39,192 nt of DNA from Acidobacteriota bacterium (GTDB taxonomy: Bacteria; Acidobacteriota; Terriglobia; Terriglobales; Acidobacteriaceae), in the NCBI GenBank assembly GCA_021818105.1, contig JAKAFB010000029.1, forward strand, positions 1-39,192, written 5' to 3'. The position numbers and the translations under genes were made by a program. Every line of letters starts with the position of its first letter. Position 1 is the first letter of the stretch. This document shows, piece after piece, positions 31,775 through 36,597 of the stretch. The notes below the pieces were generated by a model, which was not told where the DNA came from, made no database searches, and worked only from the letters and a program-made list of their open reading frames with translations.

Positions 31775-31780
31775 TATAAT
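31775..31780 (+). promoter_or_regulatory. Consensus -10 box directly before the histidine kinase gene
   Basis: A perfect TATAAT ends 6 bases before the ATG at 31787. A weak -35 (cAGACc, 31751-31756) lies 18 bases upstream. No Shine-Dalgarno fits between, so transcription would begin at about the start codon, giving a leaderless mRNA. Confidence 0.6.
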
Positions 31781-31786
31781 CGCCGC

Positions 31787-34072
31787 ATGCTTTCCAGGGA
31801 CGATGGGCGGCGGCGGTTGATGGTCCTGCTAGGTGTAGGCGCGCTGCTGGTTTTTGCCCTGCTCGGCGCGCTGCAGGCCTTCAACACCTCCAACGTGCCC
31901 TTCCTGAATCCCGACACTGCCGGGGAGACGCTGGTCTTTACCGGACTTACGGTTGTCGTCTTTCTCCTCCTGCTTCTGCTTCTCATCCTGCTGCTTCGCA
32001 ATGTACTCAAGGTCTACGCAGACCAGAGCAGCAGCGCTCTTGGCGCGCGGCTGCGCACGCGCATGGTGCTGGGTGCGGTGCTCATCGCGCTCACTCCTGC
32101 GGTCTTCATGTTTCTTTTCAGTTTCCAACTGATGAACCGCTCCATTGATCGCTGGTTCTCGCCCAACACATCCGAGCTGCGCGAGGATTCCACCCGCGTG
32201 GTGCTGGAGTTGGCGCAGTACGTGACCAACAATGCCCGCGTGGAGGCAGAATCCATTGCCGCCTCCGGCTCGCCCGACCTGCCCGTACCCGAGATTGAGA
32301 GAGCGCTCACCGCGCATAGCATTACGCTCGCCGGAGGCTTTGCTGTTGTCTACAACAGGGATATGCAGAAAATCGCCGGTTTCCAGGCGCCGCCGGAGAA
32401 CACGCCGGTGAGCCTGCTGCCCTGGCTCAACGACAACGGAGACAGCGAAGAAAGGCTGCTGAGCGGGCCGTTCTCTGTAAGCGTGTTGGCCACTGCGCAG
32501 CGCAGCGGCCTGCCGGTGCTCAAGATCGCCGGGCAGGAGTACGCGCTGGGCATGGCCTCCGCTCCTTCCGGCAAAACGGTCGTCGTCGGTCTGCTGATGC
32601 CAGAAGGCCTCAACCAGACGGCCCGCCGCATCCGTTCCGGCGCCGCGGCCTACTGGGATCTCTTTCGCTCGCGCAACCGCATTCGCTCCACTTTCTTCCT
32701 CATGCTGCTGCTTATCACCGTGGCTGTTTTTTTTGCCAGCGTGTGGCTTGCGCTTTTTCTCTCCAAGCAGATCACGCGGCCCGTGGAAGCGCTGGCCGAT
32801 GCGATGAATGAAATTGCGACAGGCAAATATGAACACCGCGTCTCGCTCGTCAGCAGCGGCGAGATGGCTGAGCTCGTGCGCTCTTTCAACCACATGGCCG
32901 CTGACCTTGACGCCAGCCGGCAGCTTGCCGAGAGCTCTTCCGCGCAGCTCACCGCCGCCAACCTGGCTCTGCAAGAGCGCCGCCGCGAGCTGGAAACGAT
33001 TCTGGAAACCATTCCCAGCGGTGTGGTCACGCTGGATAGCGCTGGAAATGTGTTGCAGGCCAATCGCGCCTTCGCCGCGCTCATTGGCCGGCAGGAGGGC
33101 TCCGCGCTGCGCGGACAGGCCATCGCGTCACTGCTTCCCGCAGAGTGCGTTGAGGATGTGACGGGCGTCATTCGCCGCGGACAGCGCATGGGCGCGGCGT
33201 CTACTGAGCTGGAGTGGCACCTTCCCGGCCGCGTGGTGCATCTCTCCGTCACCAGCGCGCGCCTGGAGTTTGCGCACAATCAGGTCGGCACCGTGCTGGT
33301 CATCGAAGACACCTCTGAGCTGTTGCGCGCGCAACGCCAGACGGCGTGGAAGGAAGTTGCGCAACGGGTTGCGCATGAAATCAAGAACCCGCTCACCCCC
33401 ATCGCACTCTCTGCTGAACGCATCGCGCGGCATCTTGACCGCGGCACGCCGGACTCGCCCGCGATTATTCGCAAATGCAGCGAGGTAATTCTGGGCTGCG
33501 TGGGCACGATGCGCACGCTTGTCGATCAGTTCTCCGCGCTGGCGCAGTTTCCCACGCCGCAGCCGCGCGCCTGCGACATGAATCAGGTTGCCGAAGAAGC
33601 GCTAGCACTGTTTACGGGCCGTCTGGAGGGCATCACGGTTACGTGCAAACTTGAGGCCGGCCTGCCGCTCGTGCTTGCTGATCCGGACGCAATGCGCCGC
33701 GCGCTTGCCAACCTCATCGACAACGCCGCTGAGGCCATGCAGGGCAGCCTGTTGCGCGTGCTCGACGTGAGCAGCAGTCTCAGTGAGGATGGAACGGCCG
33801 TCGAAGTGATCGTCTCAGACACCGGTCACGGCCTAACACCGGAGATTCGCGAGCGGCTTTTTCTGCCCTTCTACTCCACCAAGCAGCGCGGCACGGGCCT
33901 CGGCCTTTCCATCGCCTCCAAGATCGTGCAGGAGCATGGCGGCACCATTCGCGCTGAAAGCAACATTCCCAAGGGCGCGCGCTTCCTTGTACGCCTGCCG
34001 ATCATGGATCAGGTGCCGCTGCAAACGGTTGAAGCCGGCGCTTCTACGCCACTTACGGGAGCAGGTTCATGA
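31787..34072 (+). CDS. NtrY-like membrane sensor histidine kinase
   Basis: A 761-residue sensor kinase. Three N-terminal helices (about 11-29, 50-70, 93-113), an extracytoplasmic sensor region (about 115-300), a fourth helix (about 301-325), a HAMP domain, a PAS domain (about 400-510), the phosphorylated His530 in VAHEIKNPLTPIALSAER, and the ATP-binding domain with NLIDNAAEAM (N box), SDTGHGL (G1) and GTGLGLSIASKIV (G2). This layout is that of NtrY, which responds to nitrogen or redox conditions. Its stop overlaps the start of the response-regulator gene by 4 bases. A perfect TATAAT 6 bases before the ATG suggests a leaderless transcript. Confidence 0.93.
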   Translation: MLSRDDGRRRLMVLLGVGALLVFALLGALQAFNTSNVPFLNPDTAGETLVFTGLTVVVFLLLLLLLILLLRNVLKVYADQSSSALGARLRTRMVLGAVLIALTPAVFMFLFSFQLMNRSIDRWFSPNTSELREDSTRVVLELAQYVTNNARVEAESIAASGSPDLPVPEIERALTAHSITLAGGFAVVYNRDMQKIAGFQAPPENTPVSLLPWLNDNGDSEERLLSGPFSVSVLATAQRSGLPVLKIAGQEYALGMASAPSGKTVVVGLLMPEGLNQTARRIRSGAAAYWDLFRSRNRIRSTFFLMLLLITVAVFFASVWLALFLSKQITRPVEALADAMNEIATGKYEHRVSLVSSGEMAELVRSFNHMAADLDASRQLAESSSAQLTAANLALQERRRELETILETIPSGVVTLDSAGNVLQANRAFAALIGRQEGSALRGQAIASLLPAECVEDVTGVIRRGQRMGAASTELEWHLPGRVVHLSVTSARLEFAHNQVGTVLVIEDTSELLRAQRQTAWKEVAQRVAHEIKNPLTPIALSAERIARHLDRGTPDSPAIIRKCSEVILGCVGTMRTLVDQFSALAQFPTPQPRACDMNQVAEEALALFTGRLEGITVTCKLEAGLPLVLADPDAMRRALANLIDNAAEAMQGSLLRVLDVSSSLSEDGTAVEVIVSDTGHGLTPEIRERLFLPFYSTKQRGTGLGLSIASKIVQEHGGTIRAESNIPKGARFLVRLPIMDQVPLQTVEAGASTPLTGAGS

Positions 34073-35424
34073 ATCACATTCTGGTGGTGGATGACGAGGC
34101 GGAGATTCGAAGTTCGCTCGAAGAGATTCTGCACGAGGAGGGCTACGGGGTGGCCAGCTCTGCCACGGCGGCGGAGGCCATGGTATTGCTGGACGACGCG
34201 CAGTATGACGTGGTGCTGCTCGACATCTGGCTGCCCGATCGCGACGGCCTCGATGTACTGGCGGATATTCACGCGCAGGCAGCCGAAACACGCCCCGAGG
34301 TGATCATCATTTCCGGGCACGGCACCATCGAGTCTGCAGTAAAGGCCACCAAGCTCGGCGCGTATGACTTTCTTGAGAAGCCGCTCTCGCTGGAGCGCAC
34401 GCTCATCGTACTCAAGAACGCAGTGGAAGCGCGCCGCCTGCGCGCGGAGAACATCGAATTCAAGCGTCAATTTGCCGCTGCCAGTGTGCTCACCGGCGAA
34501 AGCATCCCCATGAAGGCGTTGCGCCAGCAGATTCGCCTGATGGCGCCCACGAATGGCCGTGTGCTCATCTACGGCGAGTCGGGCACGGGCAAGGAACTGA
34601 TCGCGCGCTCCATCCATGCTGAGAGCCTGCGCCGCGACCGCGTCTTTGTCGGGCTCAACTGCGCCGCCATCCCCGAGGCGTACATTGAGGCGGAGCTCTT
34701 CGGCTATCGCCATGGCGCGCACCACGGCGGGCCACCGGAGCAGCGCGGCACGCTGGAACGCGCCGACGGCGGCACACTCTTCCTGGATGAAGTGGGAGAC
34801 ATGAGCCTGAAGACGCAGGCCAAGGTGCTCTCCGCTCTCGACGAGCAGCTCTTTACGCCCGTCGGCGGTACACAACCGCTGCGTGTGGACGTGCGCCTCA
34901 TCGCCTCCACCAACAAGAACCTTGAGGAGGAGATTGCGAAGGGCAACTTCCGCGAGGATCTGTTCTATCGCCTCAACGTTGTGCCGTTCTTTGTGCCGCC
35001 GTTGCGCGAGCGCAAGGAGGACATTCCGCTGCTGGTGCGCGATTTTCTCAACGAGTTCGGCCGCCAGTACGGCCGCGCGCGCATGGAAATCAGTGACGAG
35101 GCCCTTGCCGCGCTGGCGCACTACCACTGGTCTGGCAACGTGCGCGAGCTCAAGAACGTCATCGAGCGCGTGCTCATCCTCAACCCGCGAACAGTGCGCA
35201 TTGAACGCAAGCACCTGCCTCCGCTTACCCACAAGGCCGGCACGCGATCCACTGAGGAGTTCTCCACGCTGCAGCAGGCACGCGACGCCTATGAGCGCGA
35301 GTACATTCTGAAGAAGATTGAGGAGGCGCGCAACAACGTGAGCCGTGCCGCTGAACTGCTCGGCCTGGAGCGCAGCCACCTGTATCGCAAGATGAAGGCC
35401 CTCGGCATCAGCGTGCGCGAGTAG
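34069..35424 (+). CDS. NtrX-like response regulator with AAA+ domain lacking GAFTGA
   Basis: A 451-residue regulator of NtrC/NtrX layout: receiver domain with phospho-acceptor Asp52 (VVLLDIWLP) and Lys104, AAA+ domain with Walker A GESGTGKE (169-176) and Walker B GGTLFLDEVGDM (about 234-245), the arginine-finger region FREDLFYRLNVVP, and a C-terminal Fis-type helix-turn-helix (NNVSRAAELLGLERSHLYRKMK). The sigma54-contact loop, normally GAFTGA, reads GAHHGG (216-221), so activation of sigma54 RNA polymerase is doubtful and the protein may act by DNA binding alone. The start overlaps the kinase gene by 4 bases, giving a coupled two-component pair. It converges on the next gene with only 6 bases between the stops. 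Confidence 0.93.
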   Translation: MNHILVVDDEAEIRSSLEEILHEEGYGVASSATAAEAMVLLDDAQYDVVLLDIWLPDRDGLDVLADIHAQAAETRPEVIIISGHGTIESAVKATKLGAYDFLEKPLSLERTLIVLKNAVEARRLRAENIEFKRQFAAASVLTGESIPMKALRQQIRLMAPTNGRVLIYGESGTGKELIARSIHAESLRRDRVFVGLNCAAIPEAYIEAELFGYRHGAHHGGPPEQRGTLERADGGTLFLDEVGDMSLKTQAKVLSALDEQLFTPVGGTQPLRVDVRLIASTNKNLEEEIAKGNFREDLFYRLNVVPFFVPPLRERKEDIPLLVRDFLNEFGRQYGRARMEISDEALAALAHYHWSGNVRELKNVIERVLILNPRTVRIERKHLPPLTHKAGTRSTEEFSTLQQARDAYEREYILKKIEEARNNVSRAAELLGLERSHLYRKMKALGISVRE

Positions 35425-35430
35425 CACACA

Positions 35431-36495
35431 TCATTGCAGAATGGGCGCCATCGAGCCCGGATTGTCGCCCAGCGTCGGGTCCACGCGAAAGTCCCAGATG
35501 GATTGGTTGATATCCGTGGGCGAGAGGATTTCCACCAGTGCGTATTCGCCAATTTTGAGCGGCTCCTGCGGCGTGAGCTTGAGCCAGTGCTTGCCGGGCA
35601 GCACTTCGACTTTGGTAGCAACTACGTCTTCGCTCTGCGTCACCTTGCCCAGCGGGCTCACCTGGATTGCGCCTACAATGCGCACGGCGCGCCGCTCGTC
35701 CACACGTACAATCGCAAACCCTGACGATACGGACTGTGCGCCGCGTTTCGCATTCGCCACCTGCTTCGCGCCGCCAGTCTGCACGGTCAGCGCGTCGCTC
35801 GCCACGGCGGGCACGTTGTCTTGCCCATCCAGTGAGAGATAAATCTCCGGATCGTTCACGTGCAAATGCACCCTGGCATGCGCGCCATCCAGCTCAAGAT
35901 TGGCGCGCGAGCCAGCCATTGGATTGAACGTGTTCAGGCCGCGCCAGAGATGCGTCTTGGTGTGTACGTCTGTGGGCTTCAGCTCCACCAGCTCCGGCGT
36001 ACCCCGGAAGGTGTCCAGCACAAACACGCCGTCGGAGTCGGGCAGTTGCAATCCCTTGGCCACCTCCGGCATGCGGTTGCGCTCATCGGCGCGCGCGGCG
36101 GCCTCTTCCTTGTCCAGTTCCTCGGCTTCCTTCATCGCCGGCGAAGATTCCATCGCGCTTGTGTGATCGCGCTCCCACTTGCGGGTTGCGTCCCAGTCCA
36201 CCAGGTCTACAGGCAGCTCTTCCCATCCGTCGGCACGCTCAATGGAGAGGTAGCGCACACGGTCGCCGACAATCTCATACTGACGCACGAGCTGGTAGCT
36301 GCCGTCCTTCAGAATCAGCCGGTGATTCGTGCCCATGCCCGGCAAATCCGGTTTCAGCACCAGCGGCTTGCCGTGCTGGCTTTCGTCCTGTCCAGTTTGT
36401 TGCGCGGAGTCCTGCGCCGCCGCCAGGACGCCTGCAAGCACGGCACATGCCAGCGCCGCAGTTCCCAGCCGCCACACCTGTCGCCAATGCCTCAT
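35431..36495 (-). CDS. Secreted protein of unknown function
   Basis: A 354-residue protein with a signal peptide (RHWRQVWRLGTAALACAVLAGV, cleavage near AAAQD), then a Gln-rich linker and a beta-rich segment LILKDGSYQLVRQYEIVGDR followed by ERADGWEELPVDLVDWDATR. An acidic helical stretch (about 120-145) leads to a larger beta-rich domain ending LGDNPGSMAPILQ. I recognise no catalytic motif; the LKDGSYQLVR..VGDRVRYLS pattern is, from memory, recurrent in acidobacterial secreted proteins. The frame is open to a TTG at 36516; the ATG at 36495 gives a cleaner signal peptide. TAAACT lies 8 bases before it. It converges on the response-regulator gene. Confidence 0.75.
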   Translation of the reverse strand: MRHWRQVWRLGTAALACAVLAGVLAAAQDSAQQTGQDESQHGKPLVLKPDLPGMGTNHRLILKDGSYQLVRQYEIVGDRVRYLSIERADGWEELPVDLVDWDATRKWERDHTSAMESSPAMKEAEELDKEEAAARADERNRMPEVAKGLQLPDSDGVFVLDTFRGTPELVELKPTDVHTKTHLWRGLNTFNPMAGSRANLELDGAHARVHLHVNDPEIYLSLDGQDNVPAVASDALTVQTGGAKQVANAKRGAQSVSSGFAIVRVDERRAVRIVGAIQVSPLGKVTQSEDVVATKVEVLPGKHWLKLTPQEPLKIGEYALVEILSPTDINQSIWDFRVDPTLGDNPGSMAPILQ

Positions 36496-36597
36496 GGGTC
36501 CATAGTTTAGACGCAATTTATGCTCAGGGGTCGCTGCTCCTTGCGTTCAAATCCGCCGTCTCACTGCGACCTCGCGCGCCTTTTCGCGTCCAAGTTT

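Follow-up and report, generated by a model that had tools for sequence, protein, structure and literature searches.

Regulators of the NtrC family that lack the GAFTGA motif are a kind already known. The accessible text of one report describes NtrX of Caulobacter as being without the motif (PMC10274813). The same text covers the GAFTGA-less NtrC proteins of Caulobacter and Rhodobacter capsulatus, which reportedly act at sigma-70 promoters and need their phosphorylated Asp; Caulobacter NtrC requires both ATP binding and hydrolysis, while R. capsulatus NtrC is reported to require binding rather than hydrolysis (PMC10274813). As far as the accessible texts go, the GAFTGA-less cases that we found published are proteobacterial. 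According to the available portion of PMC7240162, operons for the cell wall and for division are direct activation targets of R. sphaeroides NtrX, which also binds DNA upstream of the operon that encodes it, and NtrYX of Paracoccus is the subject of the available portion of PMC9409073. With regard to the motif itself, the accessible part of PMC2941729 reports that the Thr of GAFTGA is critical in PspF and that the Phe can be replaced only by Tyr, and also that some NorR variants substituted in GAFTGA still activate sigma-54. The glutamate switch with its Asn, and the loops L1 and L2, are described in the accessible parts of PMC7175178 and PMC2941729. Our literature search, in which subscription papers were outside the scope, found no paper joining GAFTGA with Acidobacteria and none titled on acidobacterial NtrX.

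An NtrX-like regulator and its kinase

The window, namely the whole stretch of 39,192 nucleotides that was analysed, belongs to a genome of 3.64 Mb that is 97.9% complete. Its 451-aa open reading frame (Table 1) matches the Pfam families Response_reg, Sigma54_activat, AAA_lid_14 and HTH_8 over their cut-offs, with 208.3 bits for Sigma54_activat against a cut-off of 20.2, and has the NtrC-type order of a receiver domain (REC), a Sigma54_activat AAA+ domain and a Fis-type HTH. NCBIfam NtrX (NF051870) is the top family of 115, at 476 bits. Since this score lies below the curated cut-off of 600, we use the name 'NtrX-like'. As expected of NtrX, an NtrY-type kinase gene lies directly upstream: this ntrY-like gene overlaps ntrX by 4 bases, and its product scores 27.2 bits for NtrY_N (cut-off 23.2) and contains the H-box HEIKNPL at 530 and both the N and G boxes. 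The predicted structure of the NtrX-like protein has a mean pLDDT of 84.5 and a pTM of 0.60, with residues 214-224 forming a loop.

Table 1. Features of the ntrY-ntrX locus, in window positions
Feature	Position	Strand	Details
TATAAT-N6-ATG, housekeeping-type -10 element before ntrY	31775..31789	+	perfect TATAAT
ntrY-like sensor histidine kinase	31787..34072	+	761 aa; NtrY_N, HAMP, PAS, HisKA, HATPase_c
ntrX-like response regulator	34069..35424	+	451 aa; REC 4-110, AAA+ 142-306, lid 313-396, Fis-type HTH 409-444
Asp52, receiver domain	34222..34224	+	D in 170/170 orthologues
Walker A GESGTGKE, residues 169-176	34573..34596	+	intact; K175 in 170/170
L1 loop, residues 216-221	34714..34731	+	GAHHGG in place of the usual GAFTGA
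Walker B LFLDEV, residues 237-242	34777..34794	+	intact; D240 and E241 in 170/170
Arginine-finger segment FREDLFYRLN, residues 294-303	34948..34977	+	R295 and R301 in 170/170

The sequence-only reading of this DNA had described an NtrX-like regulator with intact Walker A and Walker B motifs and GAHHGG in place of GAFTGA. Both observations are borne out: the two Walker motifs read as given in Table 1, and the codons of residues 216-221 read G-A-H-H-G-G. A sequencing error at the loop, which had been named as a possible source of the change, is ruled out, since orthologues of 82-94% identity from other genomes are likewise without GAFTGA.

Distribution of loop types among orthologues

Orthologues were drawn from 60 genomes (the window's own included), from a named genome collection and from genomes of the phylum. 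The 60 genomes gave an ntrX match at E <= 1e-100 in 57 cases; the named collection contributed the best 80 of 508 related loci; and in the phylum, where 360 of 396 genomes had a match, 60 regions were taken from the better-scoring matches listed, with the lowest-scoring phylum families falling outside the ntrX sample. The counts leave out 21 loci of less than 50% identity (paralogues), two partial ones (L075 and L142) and 26 whose protein is identical to one that was kept, and loci without a tblastn match at 1e-10 never entered the sample. This leaves 170 distinct rows. Two genus-mates of the window's genome have NtrX-like proteins identical to those of Terracidiphilus gabretensis (L145 = L043) and Occallatibacter savannae (L110 = L038), so that the genus is probably Terracidiphilus of GTDB, in the Acidobacteriaceae.

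Loops were classed by pattern, namely: A, with an aromatic residue and Thr; B, with an aromatic residue or Leu but no Thr, at the usual length; and C, eroded. The 170 rows comprise 47 of class A, 32 of class B and 91 of class C. Outside the window's taxonomic class, the aromatic residue and Thr are present in 36 of the 38 acidobacterial orthologues sampled from the better-scoring matches listed, the two exceptions reading GAFSGA and GAFNGA. Within it, A, B and C loops are all present, and Thr has been lost in several lineages (e.g. GSFPGA and GAFAGA).

These states were placed on a quick tree, built with the L1 columns removed and midpoint-rooted, in which 61 of 167 inner branches are poorly supported. 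On this tree, Thr status must change seven times, with well-supported branches requiring at least five of these changes, and the C state four times. A single clade with support 100 holds 87 of the 91 C rows, the window protein among them. Its neighbour group within the family is of class B and consists of nine rows, with loops such as GSFPGA, GSFAGA and GALPGA. From the tree, and assuming loss rather than regain and a midpoint root, the Thr was probably lost before the Phe, and the Phe before the length. L1 deletions are also seen elsewhere in the taxonomic class, outside the window's clade, in L068 and L069 (family f2, genus g7) and in L074 (family f4).

The exact hexamer GAHHGG, which the sequence-only reading had suggested looking for in orthologues, occurs in 1 of the 170 distinct rows, i.e. 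in the window protein alone, and is thus ruled out as a conserved motif. GARPGG stands in its place in the sister rows L022 and L085, with CGC CCC where the window has the His codons CAC CAC.

Constraint on L1 and on the ATPase machinery

None of the 87 clade rows has both an aromatic residue and Thr: an aromatic residue stands at 218 in L119 and L122, and a Thr at 219 in L135. Position 218 holds 14 residue types in this clade, and of 254 AAA+ columns it is the one whose variability increases most between A and C. L1 (residues 213-227) ranges in length from 11 to 27, with the usual 15 residues in 67 of the 87 rows and a changed length in 20. Pro is found at 219 in 72/87, as part of a moderate Pro-Gly-Gly consensus. 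Counted by loop type, L1 indels occur in 24 of the 91 class-C rows; class B is defined by the usual length, such that its freedom from L1 indels is true by definition and the fair count is that by clade. Elsewhere in residues 142-375, indels are found in 0/91 rows of class C, 3/47 of class A and 0/32 of class B.

Constraint was estimated as pN/pS, a simple count that is uncorrected for multiple hits. At residues 216-221, the ratio is 0.115 in A, 0.312 in B and 0.377 in family C, vs. 0.366, 0.334 and 0.184, respectively, in the rest of the AAA+ domain; at 218-219 alone, it is 0.033, 0.296 and 0.599. Relative to its own domain, L1 goes from strongly to weakly constrained between A and C. It should be noted that many segments vary more than L1 within the genus, where its pN places it 80th among 445 windows of six codons.

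Eleven residues are invariant in all 170 rows, namely: K175, N197, D240 and E241, T281 and N282, R295 and R301, R359, and D52 and K104. We take these to be, respectively, the Walker A Lys, the switch Asn, the Walker B acids, the sensor I Thr-Asn pair, the finger arginines (by likeness to PspF and NtrC1), the sensor II Arg, and the receiver's phospho-acceptor Asp with its Lys. The ATPase residues and arginine fingers of a sigma-54-dependent enhancer-binding protein (bEBP) are therefore present in every row, but GAFTGA, taken as aromatic residue and Thr, is absent from the window protein. Absence of GAFTGA with REC and the ATP site kept is the combination seen in GAFTGA-less NtrC-family regulators. 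G266 of the L2 region is also kept, and the pN/pS values place both the ATP site and the HTH under strong constraint.

Sigma-54 in the genome and transcription of the ntrY-ntrX pair

The window's genome does have rpoN, a point that had been put forward for checking (Sigma54_DBD, E 2.7e-57), and the gene was found in 54 of the 60 genomes searched, this one included. Phe-Thr is kept in 11 of the 12 other strong Sigma54_activat proteins of the genome (E <= 1.3e-46), the exception being L015, and in all nine copies of a second bEBP paralogue (E <= 1e-100) from nine genomes of the genus. With rpoN present and 11/12 bEBP-type proteins keeping Phe-Thr, lineage-wide loss of sigma-54 is ruled out as the cause of the loop change. 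Six of the 60 gave no match. In two of these, G036 and G038, genomes of the same order that are 98% and 97% complete, rpoN was not found by searches with two different domains; as they nevertheless encode 13 and 15 strong Sigma54_activat proteins, an assembly gap is as likely as loss of rpoN, and the two genomes are not counted as evidence.

The exception within the window's genome, L015 (G000:C130:48119-48619), reads EIFGWESDDLCAAREC in place of GAFTGA. It adjoins L008 (G000:C130:46696-47190), which keeps GAFTGA, and the two possibly constitute a mixed pair.

In 76 of the 80 named loci (the best 80 of 508), the gene immediately before ntrX is a homologue of ntrY; of the remaining four, three have no ntrY match and one starts too near ntrX to tell. 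The TATAAT-N6-ATG arrangement recurs in 30/30 of the loci in this set that have at least 82% identity and a ntrY match starting within the first 10 residues. When all classes are taken together, an exact TATAAT falls within -80 to +8 in 35 of 37 such loci, vs. 0.21 expected from mononucleotide shuffling. In an upstream alignment of 18 rows, good conservation is limited to the TATAAT-ATG block and the beginning of the coding region, while the sequence farther upstream is not kept. Since the TATAAT stands six bases before the ntrY ATG in all 30 of these relatives, transcription of the pair probably depends on a housekeeping-type sigma factor and yields a leaderless mRNA. This element bears on the expression of the ntrY-ntrX pair and not on the targets of NtrX. 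A scan for -24/-12 elements that covered 300 bases before ntrY at 59 loci gave no match there, its single match being inside a gene; as only three class-A and four class-B loci were readable, the scan does not discriminate between the classes and says little about targets.

Farther upstream, the window contains genes for alanine dehydrogenase and aldehyde dehydrogenase, together with mreB, mreC and the gene of a penicillin-binding protein. The last three are mentioned because of the R. sphaeroides NtrX precedent, and are not counted as evidence. Downstream, a 361-aa open reading frame on the minus strand (35431-36516) has no Pfam match; a homologue follows ntrX in reverse orientation, at varying distance, in 25 of the 80 named loci (the best 80 of 508).

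Function of the GAFTGA-less protein

Taken together, these results make it very likely that the window gene encodes an NtrY-NtrX-type response regulator that has lost its contact with sigma-54 and is now a sigma-54-independent regulator. NtrY would phosphorylate the invariant Asp52, and phosphorylation and ATP together would drive assembly of the AAA+ domains, for which the residues are likewise invariant. The Fis-type HTH would then bind DNA at target promoters, where the assembled protein may activate or repress transcription by the housekeeping sigma factor through contact or occlusion, rather than through remodelling of the sigma-54 polymerase. Freed from its use with sigma-54, L1 would drift in both sequence and length, and GAHHGG is best explained as one momentary state of such a drifting loop, on which most of the former constraint is gone. 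The simplest reading is thus that of a phosphorylated, ATP-dependent DNA-binding oligomer that would work at housekeeping-sigma promoters, as its alphaproteobacterial relatives are reported to do. The sequence-only reading had offered two possibilities, a DNA-binding regulator of sigma-70 genes or contact with a different partner. Loss of the sigma-54 contact residues (0/87) with retention of the ATPase and oligomerisation residues makes a DNA-binding regulator without sigma-54 the best reading, and hence upholds the former, with action on sigma-70 genes as its prediction; the latter, as far as it concerns the loop, is less well supported (see below). Pro219 in 72/87 rows and a pN/pS that is below 1 (0.377) show that L1 is not wholly free, which counts against the drifting-loop explanation, as do the modest rank of L1 by pN within the genus and the three clade rows that keep either an aromatic residue at 218 or a Thr at 219.

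The loss of letters from GAFTGA does not in itself prove a loss of activity, given the NorR variants that still activate after changes in the motif (PMC2941729, accessible part). The protein could then still be a sigma-54 activator whose loop is non-canonical and which touches sigma-54 through L2 and the remainder of L1. The presence of rpoN in the window's genome and most of the others searched is consistent with this, as are the retained G266 and ATPase machinery. We nevertheless regard it as very improbable: the pair of aromatic residue and Thr is gone from the entire clade, in which the length and residue 218 vary as described above; L1 went from far tighter than the rest of the AAA+ domain to about twice as variable; and PspF depends critically on its Thr and tolerates no replacement of Phe other than Tyr (PMC2941729, accessible part). 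The result of the -24/-12 scan also points away from sigma-54, with little bearing on targets.

Alternatively, the loop may have become the contact for a new partner, such as a different sigma factor, a subunit of RNA polymerase or a regulator, and be kept across the family as a new motif. Besides Pro219, this would fit G221, present in 75 of the 91 class-C rows, and several residues that are newly common in class C: Y213 (75/91), E224 (81), R226 (84), T228 (85), E230 (87) and R231 (88). The Pro-Gly-Gly consensus keeps such a contact in consideration, but a loop of 11-27 residues with 14 residue types at 218 is unlike a newly fixed contact, these features differ even among close relatives, the window copy is without the Pro, and the pN/pS of L1 is near that of the REC-AAA+ linker (0.377 vs. 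0.405 in family C, uncorrected). A new contact through L1 is thus unlikely, if somewhat less so than a non-canonical activator. Finally, the gene might be decaying toward a pseudogene, with the loop as the first part to go. The window copy has two private changes at near-fixed sites, E195G (34651-34653) and P355S (35131-35133), where 85/91 and 90/91 class-C rows, respectively, share another residue. Its branch is longer than those of its sisters, and its pN/pS against its two closest relatives is 0.07-0.09, compared to 0.03 between those two, which points to a somewhat higher rate of change in the window copy. This faster change stands, but decay is ruled out, with next to no probability left to it, by a whole-gene pN/pS of 0.07-0.14 against six near relatives, by the strong constraint on the ATP site and HTH, and by retention: an ntrX match at E <= 1e-100 is found in 36 of 37 genomes that are at least 90% complete (the window's own included, the exception being G026, 96% complete), and the adjacent kinase gene is open.

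A more specific version of the sigma-54-independent regulator can be formulated, to which we give only a minor share of probability. Here, the invariant Walker B Glu, finger arginines and switch Asn would reflect strong selection for a hydrolysing AAA+ ring, one that remodels a target other than the sigma-54 polymerase and acts as an ATP-driven regulator at promoters of the housekeeping sigma factor, through L2 or another surface. The class-B proteins would be surviving intermediates: with the aromatic residue kept and Thr replaced by Pro or Ala, they may once have served, or may still serve, both polymerases.

Whichever version applies, one orthologous family in one phylum contains intact, Thr-less and eroded loops together, in genomes that mostly have rpoN and intact paralogues. 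Such a graded series makes it possible to test in which order a regulator leaves sigma-54 and why it retains its ATPase. It also calls for caution in annotation, as not every Sigma54_activat protein is sigma-54-dependent and the label is probably wrong for this Acidobacteriaceae NtrX.

Comparison with known systems

The closest protein of known structure is Brucella NtrX. Its three PDB entries (5m7n, 5m7o and 5m7p) give the best match in the sequence comparison, at 345 bits, and their chains take the first six places in the fold comparison, where the identity is 43%. It is likewise a full-length REC-AAA+-Fis protein, and its aligned L1 stretch is also without GAFTGA; however, four residues are missing from the aligned loop, whereas the loop of the acidobacterial clade is mostly full length and substituted. 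NtrX and NtrC of Caulobacter and NtrC of R. capsulatus resemble the window protein in being NtrC-family regulators without GAFTGA, but the loop has been deleted from the NtrC proteins of these alphaproteobacteria, according to the accessible text of PMC10274813. Betaproteobacterial NtrX, e.g. that of PlrSR, is also a response regulator of the NtrYX family, but is reported in the available portion of PMC13001219 to lack the whole AAA+ domain. Both the tree and an identity of 50-57% mark the NtrX proteins of Acidobacteria outside the window's taxonomic class as orthologues; they differ in that most of those sampled keep the aromatic residue and Thr in L1. Because these orthologues mostly keep GAFTGA, we infer that the acidobacterial change arose independently of the alphaproteobacterial one (the tree itself holds no proteobacterial row). 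As far as the literature searched goes, what distinguishes the present case from the known systems is the phylum, a loss that appears to be independent, and a graded series of loops, with intermediate states still extant, beside intact paralogues.
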